52,331 nt of DNA from Luteimonas sp. ANT-B3E (GTDB lineage: Bacteria; Pseudomonadota; Gammaproteobacteria; Xanthomonadales; Xanthomonadaceae). Position 1 is the first letter of the stretch; the number at the start of each line of letters is the position of its first letter. Location: assembly GCA_001683895.1 (NCBI GenBank), contig LXQJ01000018.1:42394-94724 (forward strand). The letters are read 5' to 3'. Made by a program: the position numbers and the translations under genes. The notes beneath the pieces are model-generated. The model ran no database searches and was not told where the DNA came from. It was given only the letters and a program-made list of their open reading frames with translations. Of this stretch, positions 31,745-39,464 are shown one piece after another.

Positions 31745-32248
31745 ATGACCGCCACTCCGAACGCCGCGCGCATCGGCATCGTGATGGGTTCGCGATCCGA
31801 CTGGGCGACGATGCAGCCGGCGTCGCAGATGCTAGACGCGCTCGGCGTGGTGCACGAGGTGCGCGTGGTATCCGCGCATCGCACGCCGGATGTGCTGTTC
31901 GAGTACGCGGCAACCGCTGCATCGCGAGGGCTGCGCGCGATCATCGCCGGCGCCGGCGGCGCGGCGCACCTGCCGGGAATGCTGGCCGCCAAGACCGCGG
32001 TGCCCGTGTTGGGCGTGCCGGTACGGTCGAAGGCCCTGGCGGGCATGGATTCGCTGCTGTCGATCGTGCAGATGCCCGCGGGCGTCCCGGTGGCGACGTT
32101 CGCCATCGGGCCCGCCGGTGCGACCAACGCCGCGCTGTTCGCCGCCGCGATGCTGGCGGCGCATGACGGCGCGTTGGCGACGGCGCTGGCCGGGTTCCGC
32201 CTTCGGCAGACGCAGGACGTCGCGCGCAACGACGACCCGCGCCTGTGA
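31745..32248 (+). CDS. purE: N5-carboxyaminoimidazole ribonucleotide mutase
   Basis: Purine synthesis: converts N5-CAIR to CAIR. ATG 31745, preceded by GGGAA, gives 167 aa (class I PurE size). Signature segments: [21 protein letters not shown] (catalytic His), [13 protein letters not shown] and [13 protein letters not shown]. The stop overlaps the purK start by 4 nt (GTGA), the normal purEK arrangement. Confidence 0.96.
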
Positions 32249-33429
32249 CCCGGGTGCTGCCGGCCAGCGCGGCCGACGGGCGACACGTCGTGGGCATCCT
32301 GGGTGGCGGGCAGCTGGCCCGGATGCTGGCGCTGGCAGGCGCGCCGCTGGGCCTGCGGTTCATGGTGATGGACACCGCGGACGACGCCTGCGCCGGGCAG
32401 TGCGCACCGTTGCTGGTCGGCGATTTCCGCGACCATGCTGCGCTGGCCGACTTCGGCGGGCGCATCGACGTCGCCACGTTCGACTTCGAGAACGTGCCGG
32501 CGGAGTCCGCACGCTGGCTCGCCGAGCGCGGACCGGTGTTCCCGAATCCGGGAGCGCTGGCGATCGCGCAGGACCGCATGGCGGAGAAGTCGCTGTTCGT
32601 GGAGCTGGGGATCGCGGTGCCGCCGTTCGCGGACGTGCCGACGCGCGCCGCGCTCGATGACGCGGTGGCCGCCATCGGCATGCCCTGCATCCTCAAGACG
32701 CGTCGTCTTGGCTACGACGGCAAAGGCCAGCACCGCATCCGCGAGCGTGCGGACGTGGACGCCGCATGGGACGCGCTGGGCGCGCAGGCGGGCACGGTCG
32801 GCCTGATCCTGGAGACGTTCGTCGCCTTCGAGCGCGAGTTCAGTGTGGTCGCGGTGCGCGGCCACGACGGCGAGTTCCATGCCTGGCCGCTGACGGAGAA
32901 CTGGCACGTCGACGGCGTGCTGTCGCTCAGCCTCGCCCCGGCGCAGGTCGATCCGCGGACGGCCGCCGCTGCGGTGGCGCATGCGCACGCACTGGCGGAG
33001 CGGCTGGATTACGTCGGGGTATTCGCGCTCGAGCTGTTCTGCCACGACGGCCAGCTGCTGGCCAACGAGCTCGCCCCGCGGGTCCACAACTCCGGGCACT
33101 GGACGATCGAAGGCGCCGAGACCTCGCAGTTCGAAAACCACCTGCGCGCGGTACTGGGGCTGCCGCTCGGCGCCACCGCGTCGATCGGCCATGCCTGCAT
33201 GCTCAACTGGATCGGAGCCCTGCCGTCGCCGGCATCGCTGCTATCCACGGCAGGCGCGCACTGGCACGACTATGGCAAATCGCCGCGCGACGGGCGCAAG
33301 GTCGGGCATGCGACGCTGCGCGCGGATTCCGCCGCGGCGCTCGCCGCGATGCTGCACCAGGCTGGACTGGCCCTCGACCGCGGCGACCAGGTCGCGCCGG
33401 CGCTGGCAAGGCTGTCGGCCGGGGAGTGA
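32245..33429 (+). CDS. purK: N5-carboxyaminoimidazole ribonucleotide synthase
   Basis: ATP-grasp enzyme joining AIR and bicarbonate to give N5-CAIR for PurE. The 394-aa protein begins after a short leader with [17 protein letters not shown]. The ATP-grasp core has [13 protein letters not shown] and [17 protein letters not shown], followed by [20 protein letters not shown] and [19 protein letters not shown]. Full length, starts on GTG 32245 within the purE stop. Confidence 0.96.
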
Positions 33430-33471: not shown

Positions 33472-34071
33472 TCAATGCCCGGCGCCCGACCACCTCGCGG
33501 CGACGCCGCGCCAGTCAACAAGCTGCCAGAACGCATCAAGCGGCAGCACCGGCATGCCGCAGCCGTCCACGAGCCCGTCGTCGGTGCGTGCAGGACGGGC
33601 GTATGCCAGCAGCGGCCTGTCGTCACCGGTGACGGGCGTTGCCCCAGGCGACGTCGCCACGATGCCTAGACCACCCTCGCGGCGGCGCACCAGCCACGTC
33701 CAGCCTCGCCCTGCGGCATCGTCGACGACTGCGTCGAAACGCGCGCGCAGCGCGGTGGGACCGCCGTAGCGCTGCTCGATCGCAGCCAGTACCGCGCCAG
33801 ACGGCGCATTGCCAACGCTCACTGCGGGCGCCGCCAGGCTTTGCAGGTAAAAGGCGATGTTCCAGGCCTGTGCCGCGTGGTGGAAGCGGGCGCCCTGCGC
33901 CGTGCGCAGCAGGTCTTCGAGCGCTGGTGTTGCATCAGGGTCGGGCAGCAGCGCCTCCAGCGCCGCGAGGTGCGCGACATATCGTGCCCAGATCTGGTCG
34001 ACGGCGTCGGCGGACAGGTGCGGCTCCAGCGCGGTGCGGTCGAAGGGCGGCGGTGGGCGCTCGAAGGGCAT
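33472..34071 (-). CDS. Fe/Mn superoxide dismutase-fold protein lacking all metal ligands
   Basis: 199 aa from ATG 34071 (MPFERPPPPFD), the usual Fe/Mn-SOD length. It lines up end to end with E. coli SodB: LEPHLSADAV, HHAAQAWNIAFYL, GRGWTWLVRRREGGLGIV, GATPV, RPLLAY and DAFWQLVDWRGVA. By hand alignment the four metal ligands are gone: His26 to Ile27, His73 to Ile (WNI for WNH), Asp156 to Ala and His160 to Arg, in the PLLAYARPAR stretch that replaces LTVDVWEHAY. The second-shell Tyr is also lost; the Gln of AAQ and the Trp of GWTW remain. Intact frame, so not a decaying pseudogene. Probably a regulatory or structural pseudoenzyme. Divergent from grxD, echoing sodB-grxD proximity in enterobacteria. 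Confidence 0.85.
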   Translation of the reverse strand: MPFERPPPPFDRTALEPHLSADAVDQIWARYVAHLAALEALLPDPDATPALEDLLRTAQGARFHHAAQAWNIAFYLQSLAAPAVSVGNAPSGAVLAAIEQRYGGPTALRARFDAVVDDAAGRGWTWLVRRREGGLGIVATSPGATPVTGDDRPLLAYARPARTDDGLVDGCGMPVLPLDAFWQLVDWRGVAARWSGAGH

Positions 34072-34143
34072 GCGGTCTCGCTGGGGATGGGATGTCGCGC
34101 GCGGGCGCGGGACCGACGGCCACGATGCCTGCACGGCTGCCCT

Positions 34144-34162
34144 TACAATGCCCGATTGTAAT
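34144..34162. promoter_or_regulatory. Perfect inverted repeat, candidate operator in divergent SOD-like/grxD region
   Basis: TTACAAT-GCCCG-ATTGTAA, seven-bp perfect arms with a 5-nt spacer, stands out as the only AT-rich element in a 141-nt GC-rich divergent gap. Each arm contains TACAAT reading outward, a five-of-six -10 match, so it may be an operator overlapping face-to-face -10 elements. It ends 50 nt before the grxD ATG. No good -35 found on either side. Confidence 0.5.
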
Positions 34163-34212
34163 CCCACGCCCGCCGCGTCCATTCGCCGACGCTGCACTGC
34201 AGGAGTCACGCC

Positions 34213-34539
34213 ATGGTCATCCTCGAGCGCATCCAGGCCGAGATTGAAGCCCACCCGATCGTGCTGTTCATGAAGGGCACGCCGCAGTTCCCGATGTGCG
34301 GCTTTTCCAGCCGCACGGTGCAGGCCCTGCGCACGGCCGGGGCGGATCCGGCGGCGCTGCACACGGTCAACGTGCTCGAGGAGCCCGAAGTGCGCGCCAA
34401 CCTTCCTCGCTACTCCAACTGGCCGACTTTCCCGCAGCTGTTCATCCACGGCGAGCTGATCGGGGGCTGTGACATCGCGCTGGAGCTGTTCGAGTCCGGC
34501 GAGCTCGCCCGCATGATCGCGGAGACGCAGAAGGCGTGA
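34213..34539 (+). CDS. grxD: Monothiol glutaredoxin (CGFS type)
   Basis: [2Fe-2S] cluster carrier and chaperone in Fe-S protein assembly. The 108-aa protein has the active-site CGFS motif at Cys29 in FPMCGFSSR, the glutathione-binding WPTFPQLFIHGELIGGCDI segment and Grx4 length. AGGAG (34202-34206) fixes ATG 34213. The stop overlaps the SDR start by 4 nt (GTGA), so grxD, SDR and MarC genes form a coupled trio. Confidence 0.96.
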   Translation: MVILERIQAEIEAHPIVLFMKGTPQFPMCGFSSRTVQALRTAGADPAALHTVNVLEEPEVRANLPRYSNWPTFPQLFIHGELIGGCDIALELFESGELARMIAETQKA

Positions 34540-35303
34540 TCGGCGGCGCGCCCGCTGCGCGCCCGGATGACGTCGGCCGCGATGCCGCCGCGAGGCCGCT
34601 GGCGGGACGCGTGGTGCTGGTCACCGGCGCCGGTGGTGGCCTCGGTCGTGTCGCCAGCCTGGCCTGCGCATGCGCGGGCGCGACGGTCGTGCTGCTCGGC
34701 CGGCGCGTGCCGAAGCTCAACCGCGTCTATGACGCGATTGCCGCGCTGGCCGGCGAGGGCGTCGGCGGCGCCGTCAACTATCCGCTGGACCTGGCAGGGG
34801 CGACGCCGCAGGACCTTGCCGACCTCGCGACGCGCATCGAGGCGCAGCTGGGCCGGCTGGACGGCATCCTCCACTGTGCCGCCGACTTCACCGCGCTGAC
34901 GCCGCTGGCGCAGACCGACCCGCTGGCGTTCGCACGATCGGTCCACGTCAACCTCGGCGCGCGCGCATGGCTGACGCAGGCGTGCCTGCCGCTGCTGGCG
35001 CGGGCGCCACGGGCGAGCGTGGTGTTCGTTGTCGACGACGCGCCCGAGTCCGTTGCCTATCGCGGTGGCTATGGCGTGGCGCAGGCAGCGCAGGTGGCGC
35101 TGGTGGAGATGCTGAAGGCCGAGATGGCGTCGTCGCCGGTGGCGCTGACGCTGTTCCGGCCTGGTCCGATGCGCACGCCGCTGCGCGCCAAGGCCTACGT
35201 CGAGTCCGACCCGGGCCGCGCCCGGGACCCCGCGGAGCACGCGGACGCCTGTGTGGCGCTGCTTGCCGGGGCCGCGGCGGCGAGCGACGCGACCCCCGCA
35301 TGA
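34536..35303 (+). CDS. SDR-family oxidoreductase, YciK-like, with altered catalytic residues
   Basis: 255-aa short-chain dehydrogenase fold. The nucleotide-binding motif TGAGGGLG (residues 30-37), GILHCAADF and Asn139 in VHVNLG are conserved, and the overall layout resembles YciK. However the catalytic Ser position reads Val-Asp (FVVDDAPES), and YxxxK is YGVAQ (Tyr179, Gln183), so the essential Lys is missing. It may bind NAD(P) without normal SDR chemistry. The C-terminal FRPGPMRTPLRAKAY substrate loop is present. GTG start in the grxD stop; the stop overlaps the MarC gene (ATGA). Confidence 0.82.
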   Translation: MIGGAPAARPDDVGRDAAARPLAGRVVLVTGAGGGLGRVASLACACAGATVVLLGRRVPKLNRVYDAIAALAGEGVGGAVNYPLDLAGATPQDLADLATRIEAQLGRLDGILHCAADFTALTPLAQTDPLAFARSVHVNLGARAWLTQACLPLLARAPRASVVFVVDDAPESVAYRGGYGVAQAAQVALVEMLKAEMASSPVALTLFRPGPMRTPLRAKAYVESDPGRARDPAEHADACVALLAGAAAASDATPA

Positions 35304-36036: not shown

Positions 36037-36140
36037 CGGATGTGACCGCTTTCGCGGTTCCGCCCGGCCGGGGATCACCCGCATCGCCTTTTCCTGTCGC
36101 GCACCGCGCGCCACCGTTCACCTGTCAGAGGCATTGCCCA

Positions 36141-39100
36141 ATGAACCACCGTCACCGCATCCGAGTGTCCAAGCTGTCGCTCGGCTTGATCGTCGCGCTT
36201 GCCGCGGCGCCCGCATTCGCGCAGCAGACCTCCGCTGGTGTCGCGGGCCAGATCCTCGGCGCCAACGGGCAGCCGGTCCCCAATGCCGAAGTGACGATCG
36301 TGCACACCGAGTCGGGCACGGTCAGCCGGGTCACGTCGGATGCCAACGGTCGATACACCGCGCGCGGCCTGCGCGTCGGTGGGCCCTACACGATCACGGC
36401 CAATGCCGCCGGTGCGGGCAGCAGCAGCCAAGATGCCATCTTTTTGAATCTCAACGCCGTCAACACGGTCGACGTCGCATTGCGCAATGATGTCACCACG
36501 CTCGGTACCGTGCAGGTCATCGGGGTCGGCGGTGGGTCGGAGATTTTCAGCGCCAGCAAGATGGGCACAGGCTCCAGCGTCACCCGAGAGCAAATCGAGG
36601 CGCTGCCGTCGATCGCGCGCGATATCCAGGACTACATCCGTCTCGACCCGCGCATCGCCCAGACCAGCAAGGGCCGCGGCGAGATCTCCGCCGGTGGCCA
36701 GAACTCGCGCTTCAACTCGATCCGCATCGACGGCGTGTCGGCATCCGATACCTTCGGCCTTGAGTCCAACAACTCCCCGACCTTCCGCCAGCCGGTGTCG
36801 ATCGACGCGATCGAGGAGATCAGCATTGAGCTGGCCGACTACGACGTCGGCATCAGCGGCGCCACCGGCGCGGTGGTCAACGCCGTGACCAAGTCGGGCA
36901 CCAACGAATTCAGCGGCTCCGCCTACTACTTCTTCCGCGACAACAACTTCGTGCGCGGCAACGACAACCCGGGTGGCGTGTATGGCCCGTTCGACGGCGG
37001 CGACTTCACCGGCTTCAACGACGAAGAAACCTATGGCATCACATTCGGTGGTCCGCTGATCAGGGATCGGCTGTTCTTCTTCGCCAACTACGAAAAGTTC
37101 GTCCGCTCCGCGCCTGGCACAACGGTGTCGCTGCAGGCGTCGAGAATCACCGATCCGCAGATCGCTGAGGTGCAGCGGATCGCACGCGATGTCTACGGCT
37201 TCGACGCGGGCACCCAGAACGCGCCTGAAGACCTGAAGACGGAGATCGAGGAGTACGCGGTCAAGATCGACTGGAACATCAGCGACACGCAGCGTGCGTC
37301 CTTCCGCTACAGCAACCTCGAGCAGTCCGACGTTTTCCTGTACGGCTTCGGCAACAACAGTCGTTCGCTGAGCACCAACTGGAGCATCACCGACAAGACC
37401 GTCGAGAGCTATGTGGCACAGCTCTTCAGCGACTGGAGCGACAACTTCTCGACCGAGTTCAAGGTCTCGTACCGAGAGTACGCGTCGGTGCGCAACCCGT
37501 TCTCGCGCCTGCCGGGGATCAGCGTCGCGTTCGGGACGCCGCTTGCCAACGGCACGCCGGTGTTGCCGTTCCTGAATTTCGGCACCGACACCTTCAGCCA
37601 TGTCAATGTGCTGGAGACCGACACCACCAACGCCTATGCCGCGGGTACCTATTACGCCGGTGACCATGAGATCAAGTTCGGCTTGGACTACGAGGACAAT
37701 GCGGTCTACAACGTCTTCGGCCAGAACCTGTTTGGCAGCTACAGCTTCGCCAGCACCGCCGACTTCGCGGCCGGACGCTACTGGACGTATTCGTCGAATG
37801 CGCCGCGTCCGGGCCTCCCTGTCGACAGTATCGCGGCGGACTATAGCCAGGCGAACCTGGGTATCTTCGTCCAGGATCGCTGGGCGATCACCAGCAACCT
37901 GAGCCTGATGTTCGGCATCCGCGCCGACCGCATCACCCTGGACTCGGCACCCGAGTTCAATGCGCTCACCGCGGCCGTCTATGGCGTCGACAATTCCCAG
38001 ACCCCGGACGGCAACACGCTGGTGCAGCCGCGCTTCGGCTTCAACTACACCTTCGACAGCGATCGCCAGACCCAAGTGCGAGGCGGCGTGGGCCTGTTCC
38101 AGGGCGCTGCGGCCAACGTGTGGATCGGCAACTCGTTCGCCAACACCGGTTTCAACGTCGTGAACTACGGCTCGCCGGGCTTCGGCAACTTGACGCAGGC
38201 GCAGCGCGACGCGATCCGGGCCCAGTTCCCGTTCACACCGGATCCGGACAACCAGCCGCAGCCGGCCGCGAACCGCCAGATGGCCGTCAACCTCATCGAG
38301 CCCGACTTCGAGCAGCCATCGGTGTGGAAGGCCAACCTCGCGTTCGATCACGAGCTGCCGTGGTACGGCATCGTCGGTTCGGCCGAGCTGCTGCTCACCC
38401 AGGTCAACAAGGGCCTGTACTACGAGCGGCTCGACCTCGGTACGCCCACCGGCTTCGCGCAGGACGGCCGCCCGGTGTACTACGCCAATCGCCTCACCAA
38501 CTCCGGCGTCCGCGCCAACCAGAACCGCGAGCTCAACGCGCTGCGCGCCGCCGGGCAGCTGCCTGCCGGCTTCGCGAACGTAAGCGGCTGGGCCAATGAC
38601 GGTGTGATCGTGCTGCGCAACACCGACAAGGGCGAGACCCAGCAACTGACGCTGAGCCTGCAGAAGCCGACGCAGGAGAACTGGTCGTGGCTCGCGGCTT
38701 ACACCCGCACCGTGGCCAACGAGGTCAACCCGCTGACCAGCTCGCGCGCGATCAGCAACTGGAACGCCAACATCTCGTTCGATCCCAATGAGGAAGTGTC
38801 GTCGCGCTCCAATTACGAGATCCGCGACCGTTTCACCGGCGCGCTCACCTGGCGCAAGGCGTTCTTCGGCGACAACAACACCAGCGTCTCGGTCTTCTAC
38901 GAGGGCCGTTCGGGCAAGCCGTACAGCTGGGGCTTCCGCAATGATGCCAACGGCGACGGCTATACGAATGACCTCTTCTACGTGCCGAAGGGACCGGGTG
39001 ACGTGGCGTTTTCCGGCGTTCGCGCCCCCACCGGGGGGGCGTTTACCACGACGCCCGCCCAGATGGAAGCCGCGTTCTTCACCTGGTTGAACCAGAACCC

Positions 39101-39464
39101 GGACCTGGCGCGCTTTGCCGGGCAGGTGGCGCCGCGCAACGTCGGCACCTCGAAGTTCGTGAATACCTTCGACGTCAGCATCAAGCAGGAGCTGCCGGGC
39201 TTTTTCGCCGGCAACAAGGCCGAGATCTCGTTCGACATCCTCAACTTCGGCAACCTGCTCAACAAGGATTGGGGGCAGACGTACGAGGTCGGGTTCCCGC
39301 TCAACCGCGGCGTCGCGCTGGCCACCGGTACCGATTCCCAGGGTCGATACATCTATAACTTCGATCCCGCGCTCGTGACTCCCGAAGGCCTCTACGACAA
39401 CCAGGACCAGACCAAGGGCATCTCGCGCTGGCAGCTGCAGGTCGGACTCCGCTACAAGTTCTGA
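36141..39464 (+). CDS. Oar-like TonB-dependent outer-membrane receptor
   Basis: Large TonB-dependent receptor, 1107 aa, probably taking up a peptide or other nutrient (substrate unknown). ATG 36141, with AGAGG upstream (36127-36131), starts a signal peptide (RVSKLSLGLIVALAAAPAFA). It has a carboxypeptidase-regulatory-like beta-sandwich (about 30-110, VAGQILGANGQPVPNAEVTI). A plug follows (about 130-250, IEALPSIARDIQDYIRLDPR, SGATGAVVNAVTKSGTNEF), then a 22-strand-type barrel ending in the C-terminal Phe (LQVGLRYKF). The domain order matches Oar. Abundant Asn/Tyr/Phe codons lower GC relative to neighbours, as is common in such barrels. Isolated transcription unit. Confidence 0.92.
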   Translation: MNHRHRIRVSKLSLGLIVALAAAPAFAQQTSAGVAGQILGANGQPVPNAEVTIVHTESGTVSRVTSDANGRYTARGLRVGGPYTITANAAGAGSSSQDAIFLNLNAVNTVDVALRNDVTTLGTVQVIGVGGGSEIFSASKMGTGSSVTREQIEALPSIARDIQDYIRLDPRIAQTSKGRGEISAGGQNSRFNSIRIDGVSASDTFGLESNNSPTFRQPVSIDAIEEISIELADYDVGISGATGAVVNAVTKSGTNEFSGSAYYFFRDNNFVRGNDNPGGVYGPFDGGDFTGFNDEETYGITFGGPLIRDRLFFFANYEKFVRSAPGTTVSLQASRITDPQIAEVQRIARDVYGFDAGTQNAPEDLKTEIEEYAVKIDWNISDTQRASFRYSNLEQSDVFLYGFGNNSRSLSTNWSITDKTVESYVAQLFSDWSDNFSTEFKVSYREYASVRNPFSRLPGISVAFGTPLANGTPVLPFLNFGTDTFSHVNVLETDTTNAYAAGTYYAGDHEIKFGLDYEDNAVYNVFGQNLFGSYSFASTADFAAGRYWTYSSNAPRPGLPVDSIAADYSQANLGIFVQDRWAITSNLSLMFGIRADRITLDSAPEFNALTAAVYGVDNSQTPDGNTLVQPRFGFNYTFDSDRQTQVRGGVGLFQGAAANVWIGNSFANTGFNVVNYGSPGFGNLTQAQRDAIRAQFPFTPDPDNQPQPAANRQMAVNLIEPDFEQPSVWKANLAFDHELPWYGIVGSAELLLTQVNKGLYYERLDLGTPTGFAQDGRPVYYANRLTNSGVRANQNRELNALRAAGQLPAGFANVSGWANDGVIVLRNTDKGETQQLTLSLQKPTQENWSWLAAYTRTVANEVNPLTSSRAISNWNANISFDPNEEVSSRSNYEIRDRFTGALTWRKAFFGDNNTSVSVFYEGRSGKPYSWGFRNDANGDGYTNDLFYVPKGPGDVAFSGVRAPTGGAFTTTPAQMEAAFFTWLNQNPDLARFAGQVAPRNVGTSKFVNTFDVSIKQELPGFFAGNKAEISFDILNFGNLLNKDWGQTYEVGFPLNRGVALATGTDSQGRYIYNFDPALVTPEGLYDNQDQTKGISRWQLQVGLRYKF

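Follow-up and report, generated by a model that had tools for sequence, protein, structure and literature searches.

An intact ortholog of the iron superoxide dismutase SodB in Luteimonas that has lost its metal ligands under purifying selection

In a survey of the SodFM family across 3,011 genomes, the four metal ligands are described as universally conserved, according to a figure legend (PMC10172142). Departures at the active site are reported for Xanthomonas citri, in which the SodB protein XAC2677 (Xac3) carries, by modeling, the gate changes His31 to Cys and Tyr35 to Glu. In the excerpts of that paper, its authors regard XAC2677 as probably inactive or of unknown function, and hold the trait to be specific to Xanthomonas; the genome also has a working MnSOD (PMC6322740). 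Among the open-licence literature listed, mostly as titles and abstract openings, no report of ligand loss in bacterial SodB was found, and a search for this or for SodB of Luteimonas yielded only the Xanthomonas gate case.

Here, we examined a window of 52,331 nucleotides from Luteimonas sp. ANT-B3E (contig LXQJ01000018.1; "the window" denotes this whole stretch). It contains an ortholog of the chromosomal Fe-SOD gene sodB, referred to below as pseudo-sodB, at a locus made up as follows:

32245..33429, plus strand: purK, syntenic neighbor, convergent with pseudo-sodB (named by reading the sequence)
33472..34071, minus strand: pseudo-sodB coding sequence, a SodB-derived pseudo-superoxide dismutase of 199 amino acids (from frame, profile matches, and fold)
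34072..34212, no strand: gap of 141 bases between the divergent pseudo-sodB and grxD
34213..34539, plus strand: grxD, monothiol glutaredoxin with CGFS, syntenic neighbor
34536..35303, plus strand: short-chain dehydrogenase/reductase (SDR)-like gene downstream of grxD, syntenic (named by reading the sequence)

The pseudo-sodB frame is intact, running from an ATG at 34071 to a stop at 33472, and full-length homology to SodB, as proposed in the first-pass annotation of this DNA, was upheld by profile and PDB matches. The NCBIfam SodB equivalog PRK10543 matched residues 1 to 191 at 109 bits, short of its cut-off of 348, and sequence searches matched PDB entries 2w7w (E = 2.4e-29) and 1isa, from E. 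coli (E = 5.5e-27; 36% identity to E. coli SodB). The C-terminal domain PF02777 scored 41.9 bits (cut-off, 20.9) over profile positions 1 to 67 of 102 only, and the N-terminal domain PF00081 scored 19.5 bits, below its cut-off of 27. In a six-frame search, a Luteimonas profile matched the pseudo-sodB frame at 176.6 bits (E = 1.7e-55), and the other four frames reported all scored below 0 bits, which excludes a chance likeness to SodB. An AlphaFold2 model of the window protein, the one ortholog modeled, was built from a 17-sequence alignment and gave a pLDDT of 87.7 and a pTM of 0.84, with its weakest confidence at residues 161 to 170. In Foldseek, the best 10 matches to this model were all SODs (TM, 0.82 to 0.87; rmsd, 3.0 to 3.5 Å), as were the best 25 of 353, and matches 26 to 50 of 353 were SODs or plastid RNA polymerase chains. 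The window protein is accordingly modeled with a SOD fold, as the first-pass annotation had predicted.

The three His and one Asp that define an Fe/Mn SOD are not found in this protein. The altered positions are:

33991..33993, minus strand: codon 27, Ile in place of the SodB metal ligand His26 (from alignments)
33856..33858, minus strand: codon 72, Ile in place of the metal ligand His73, giving WNI for WNH (from alignments)
33538..33603, minus strand: codons 157 to 178, rewritten segment replacing DVWEH and the residues downstream, including the lowest-confidence stretch of the model

It had been claimed that all four ligands are replaced, by Ile27, Ile (WNI), Ala, and Arg. The first two replacements, H26 to Ile27 and H73 to Ile72, were clear in the alignments. 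The Ala and Arg proved dependent on the aligner, the equivalents of D156 and H160 being read as Ala/Arg, as Ala/Asp (phmmer), or as gaps. However, the segment from L155 to F181 is rewritten throughout and contains zero His and zero Trp, so the WEH motif and H160 are lost under any alignment. His occupies the position of gate Tyr34, whose loss had also been noted, and the second-shell residues said to remain were found as Gln69, Trp122, and Trp124. The missing WEH motif was not found in the other frames when these were searched with the last 41 positions of the Luteimonas profile. A frameshift or assembly slip was rejected as the cause of the rewritten segment because neither the profile nor its C-terminal part matches another frame. 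Since the window protein lacks the ligands, it should bind no Fe or Mn in the manner of a SOD, and its dismutase chemistry, judged from the sequence, is very probably lost, as first proposed.

To place this loss within the genus, we used all 52 Luteimonas genomes returned by the search. SodB ligands were lost in 47 of these, the canonical set (HHDH) was kept in two (G006 and G051), and three (G007, G010, and G012) had no sodB gene and still had grxD. In these three genomes (loci L162, L163, and L164), purK and grxD adjoin, with about 100 to 120 bases between them and sodB gone. For these counts, L003 was dropped as a repeat of the window locus, L051, L053, L058, and L062 as loci that are or may be from genomes already counted, and L142, L147, and L148 as other SOD-like paralogs. 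Two of the paralogs, L142 (G010) and L148 (G057), represent an extra, very divergent SOD-like protein that two Luteimonas genomes encode away from the sodB locus; in a loose alignment, they keep HHDH and are altered at Gln69 and the pocket Trp positions. All 49 Luteimonas orthologs are full-length, with the other 48 sharing 38 to 48% identity with the window protein; in six rows, one stop fell within the match, at the C-terminal end and beyond the shorter proteins' own stops. The first-pass expectation of a conserved pseudo-SOD was borne out, since H73, D156, and gate Tyr34 were lost in 47 of the 49.

Residue counts were made over 45 of the 47 ligand-loss orthologs, excluding the window and G063. 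Position 73 was never His in these 45 proteins (N in 15, T in 12, L in 7, E in 5, D in 4, and Q and C in 1 each), and position 156 was never Asp (S in 25, C in 19, and N in 1). Position 34 was never Tyr: it held His in 28 and Asp in 6. Trp77, Trp122, Trp124, and Trp158 were each present in all 45, and E159 was retained in 32. G063 (locus L077) is eroded like the window, with R or H at position 26, depending on the alignment, followed by D, P, and G; across the Luteimonas loci read, complete or near-complete ligand loss was confined to G063 and the window genome.

These counts bear on a reading, which we consider doubtful, in which the typical Luteimonas pocket binds another metal or ligand through H26, H160, and Gln69 together with the His or Asp newly present at 34 and the Cys or Ser newly present at 156, the window protein being a further derivative without ligands. 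Retention of H26 (43/45), H160 (45/45), and Gln69 (45/45) speaks for such a site, as do the narrow choice of Ser, Cys, or Asn at 156, the preference for His or Asp at 34, and the occurrence in Luteimonas of the sets His-Asp-Cys-His and His-Glu-Cys-His at positions 26/73/156/160. Against it, position 73 varies freely, 11 of the 45 carry a residue other than His or Asp at position 34, and the window protein lacks the residue set, yet its branch evolves at the same omega as the rest. A genus-wide neofunctionalized SOD, in which H73 and D156 were lost, His/Asp34 and Ser/Cys156 were gained, and a new ligand-binding pocket (H26-H160-Gln69-Cys/Ser156) took on a novel function other than dismutation, with the window protein later reduced to the scaffold alone, appears just as doubtful.

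The Luteimonas pseudo-SodB is under purifying selection. Under GY+F3X4, omega was 0.107 for pseudo-SodB (31 of the 45 orthologs), 0.074 for canonical SodB (n = 31, with 30 from other genera plus L043), and 0.050 for GrxD from the same 31 Luteimonas loci; the first-pass annotation had named high dN/dS as a sign of decay, and the pseudo-SodB value is low. In a purpose-written two-ratio codon model with 12 sequences and a fixed tree, omega was 0.145 on the window branch versus 0.140 in the background. An omega of 1 was rejected on the window branch (2ΔlnL = 26.5; P ≈ 3e-7, chi-square with 1 degree of freedom), with similar strength when residues 155 to 178 were left out (25.2), and more weakly in the C-terminal half (7.3) than in the N-terminal half (20.3). 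Synonymous change is saturated on this branch (length, ∼7.6), so the omega there is a long-time average that leaves room for recent decay in this genome. A recent pseudogene was considered and found unlikely, given that ligand loss is common to the orthologs, that the frames are intact, and that the codon tests show constraint. Thus, the three marks of a pseudoenzyme were found together: a kept SOD fold (predicted, and for the window protein only), lost ligands, and purifying selection.

It is improbable, in our estimate, that these genes are slow relics, that is, copies of a dispensable SodB that is being lost and has been retained through inertia. The gene is missing between purK and grxD in 3 of the 52 Luteimonas genomes, which indicates that sodB is dispensable; omega is somewhat above that of canonical SodB, and the window and G063 proteins are the most eroded in the genus. 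All of this would be expected of a relic. In contrast, the 49 full-length frames out of 49, the rejection of neutrality on the window branch, and the invariance of H160 and four Trp residues in the 45 orthologs are not.

Regarding redundancy, a canonical sod elsewhere in the genome, a check suggested in the first-pass annotation, was found twice over: the window genome encodes two further Fe/Mn SODs (L001 and L002), both with HHDH, and it is the one genome in which the ligands of second SODs were read. We compared 122 genomes for which the ligands could be read and PF02777 matches counted; L131, L133, and L141 were excluded because their ligand columns were incomplete, and all Luteimonas genomes except G006 entered as having at least two SODs by PF02777 count. 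All 36 genomes having one PF02777 match kept HHDH, and ligands were lost in 53 of the 86 with at least two. Because every single-match genome keeps HHDH, all 53 losses fall in genomes with an additional SOD-domain match. (The 67 canonical rows used for residue comparison were selected for reading HHDH.) Over independent pairs, the second SOD pointed in the same direction in 0.8 of 7 and made no difference in 6.2 of 7 (median p, 1). The association fits the redundancy prediction, with kinship explaining much of it, and the corrected test is underpowered and not significant. In one single-SOD genome, G313 (L136), the ligands are kept, the gate Tyr is gone, and the frame is apparently truncated.

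Beyond Luteimonas, a SodB match was present in 381 of 395 genomes of the family. The gene was read in 76 of the 346 matched family genomes outside Luteimonas, of which 73 had all four ligand columns filled; the 76 were chosen from the listed best matches and deliberately from weak ones, and this non-random choice permits no estimate of frequency. Ligand loss also arose separately in other genera of this family, where the sets read were LLNH in L088, HHNH in L099, QLNH in L138 and L139, HLDH in L149, and HQPT in L140. In a tree of PurK, GrxD, and SDR, built from the 127 of 161 SOD loci that had matches to both GrxD and SDR and were not duplicates, four of these five loss groups are each sister to canonical sequences (SH-aLRT, at least 96); the placement of L140, on a long branch, is unsure. 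At least 9 changes were required over 120 tree rows, a count from a quick tree with 30 open forks in which gain and loss are indistinguishable. Gate changes with the ligands kept occurred in L117, L123, and L125 (C30, E34), in L086 and L152, and in others. L117, L123, and L125 come from a genus with genomes of 4.9 to 5.3 Mb, and their Cys30/Glu34 pair is the published signature of Xanthomonas XAC2677. HHDH was kept in all 19 loci from other families of the order, which were taken from the best extra-family matches listed, and was also read in 13 order-level loci and the Oleiagrimonas locus L052.

The locus itself is old. The order purK, (pseudo-)sodB, grxD, and SDR was found in nearly all family loci read, with sodB convergent with purK and divergent from grxD, and canonical SodBs of the same family and of other families occupy the identical purK/grxD locus; E. 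coli sodB also lies near grxD. Since canonical SodBs share the locus, the sodB-grxD linkage predates ligand loss. This bears on a further reading, that pseudo-SodB is a partner of the neighboring GrxD in Fe-S or redox sensing, which we regard as very unlikely. The two genes lie next to each other, divergently and in conserved synteny, at almost every family locus read, and of the 13 genomes from other genera of the family without a SodB match, 8 were checked and all 8 showed a distant GrxD only (42 to 48%), as a partnership would predict. However, canonical SodBs have the same linkage, and grxD persists where sodB is absent, in three Luteimonas genomes. A linkage older than ligand loss does not establish a partner role, and the use of grxD adjacency as evidence of role in the first-pass annotation did not hold; pseudo-SodB may have a sensor, scaffold, or partner role, as offered there. 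In the eight genomes checked (L165 to L172), sodB and this grxD may have been lost together, or the assemblies may be incomplete. A promoter scan found no sigma-70-type match in the 141-base pseudo-sodB/grxD gap. Elsewhere in the window (36042 to 39464, plus strand), a large frame resembles, on reading, a TonB-dependent receptor with a carboxypeptidase-like N-terminal domain.

Taken together, these data make it reasonably probable that a sodB ortholog became a pseudoenzyme, was freed by a second SOD, was kept for work other than dismutation, and was eroded further in the window. A second Fe/Mn SOD would assume the dismutase duty, leaving the SodB active site free to change. The folded body would serve another purpose, with the pocket of the old active site accommodating either a partner protein or a small ligand, and this other task would explain why the protein is retained. 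E159 and H160 bridge the two subunits of a SOD, which may be why H160 outlasts the pure ligands H73 and D156. In most species, the protein is probably a dimer, as the retention of these two residues suggests, and its common role is likely that of a dimeric binding protein. In the window lineage, H26, H160, and the WEH motif are gone as well, and with them the E159/H160 bridge. Its protein should be metal-free, because its task would need none of the old ligands, and may act by binding rather than by redox chemistry. Several points count against this pseudoenzyme reading: the omega of pseudo-SodB exceeds that of canonical SodB, three Luteimonas genomes do without the gene, the link with a second SOD is not significant after correction for kinship, the saturated window branch leaves room for recent decay, and H26, H160, and Gln69 persist in most species, which would be odd for an empty pocket.

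In this bacterial family, SOD ligands were lost more than once from a gene that remained under selection, and canonical sisters occupy the same locus. These genes offer a natural series of steps from enzyme to pseudoenzyme in which a role for a metal-less SOD fold can be tested, and the annotation "superoxide dismutase" would mislead for them. The window protein resembles E. coli SodB (PDB 1isa) in fold, length, Gln69, and Trp122, but the latter has the metal ligands and gate Tyr. The SOD fold is reused structurally in the yeast mitoribosomal proteins mS42 and mS43; these are eukaryotic ribosomal proteins, unlike the bacterial protein described here, and excerpts of PMC9892005 and PMC7560712 make no mention of SOD. 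In plants, the plastid RNA polymerase subunits PAP4 and PAP9 (FSD3 and FSD2; PDB names) are SOD homologs within a larger complex. The surveyed SodFM family is homologous to the window protein, and the four ligands that the figure legend describes as conserved there are lost here. On the excerpts of the X. citri paper, the closest precedent is XAC2677, likewise a SodB from the same family with a further SOD in its genome; whereas gate changes are reported for XAC2677, the window protein has lost the metal ligands themselves.
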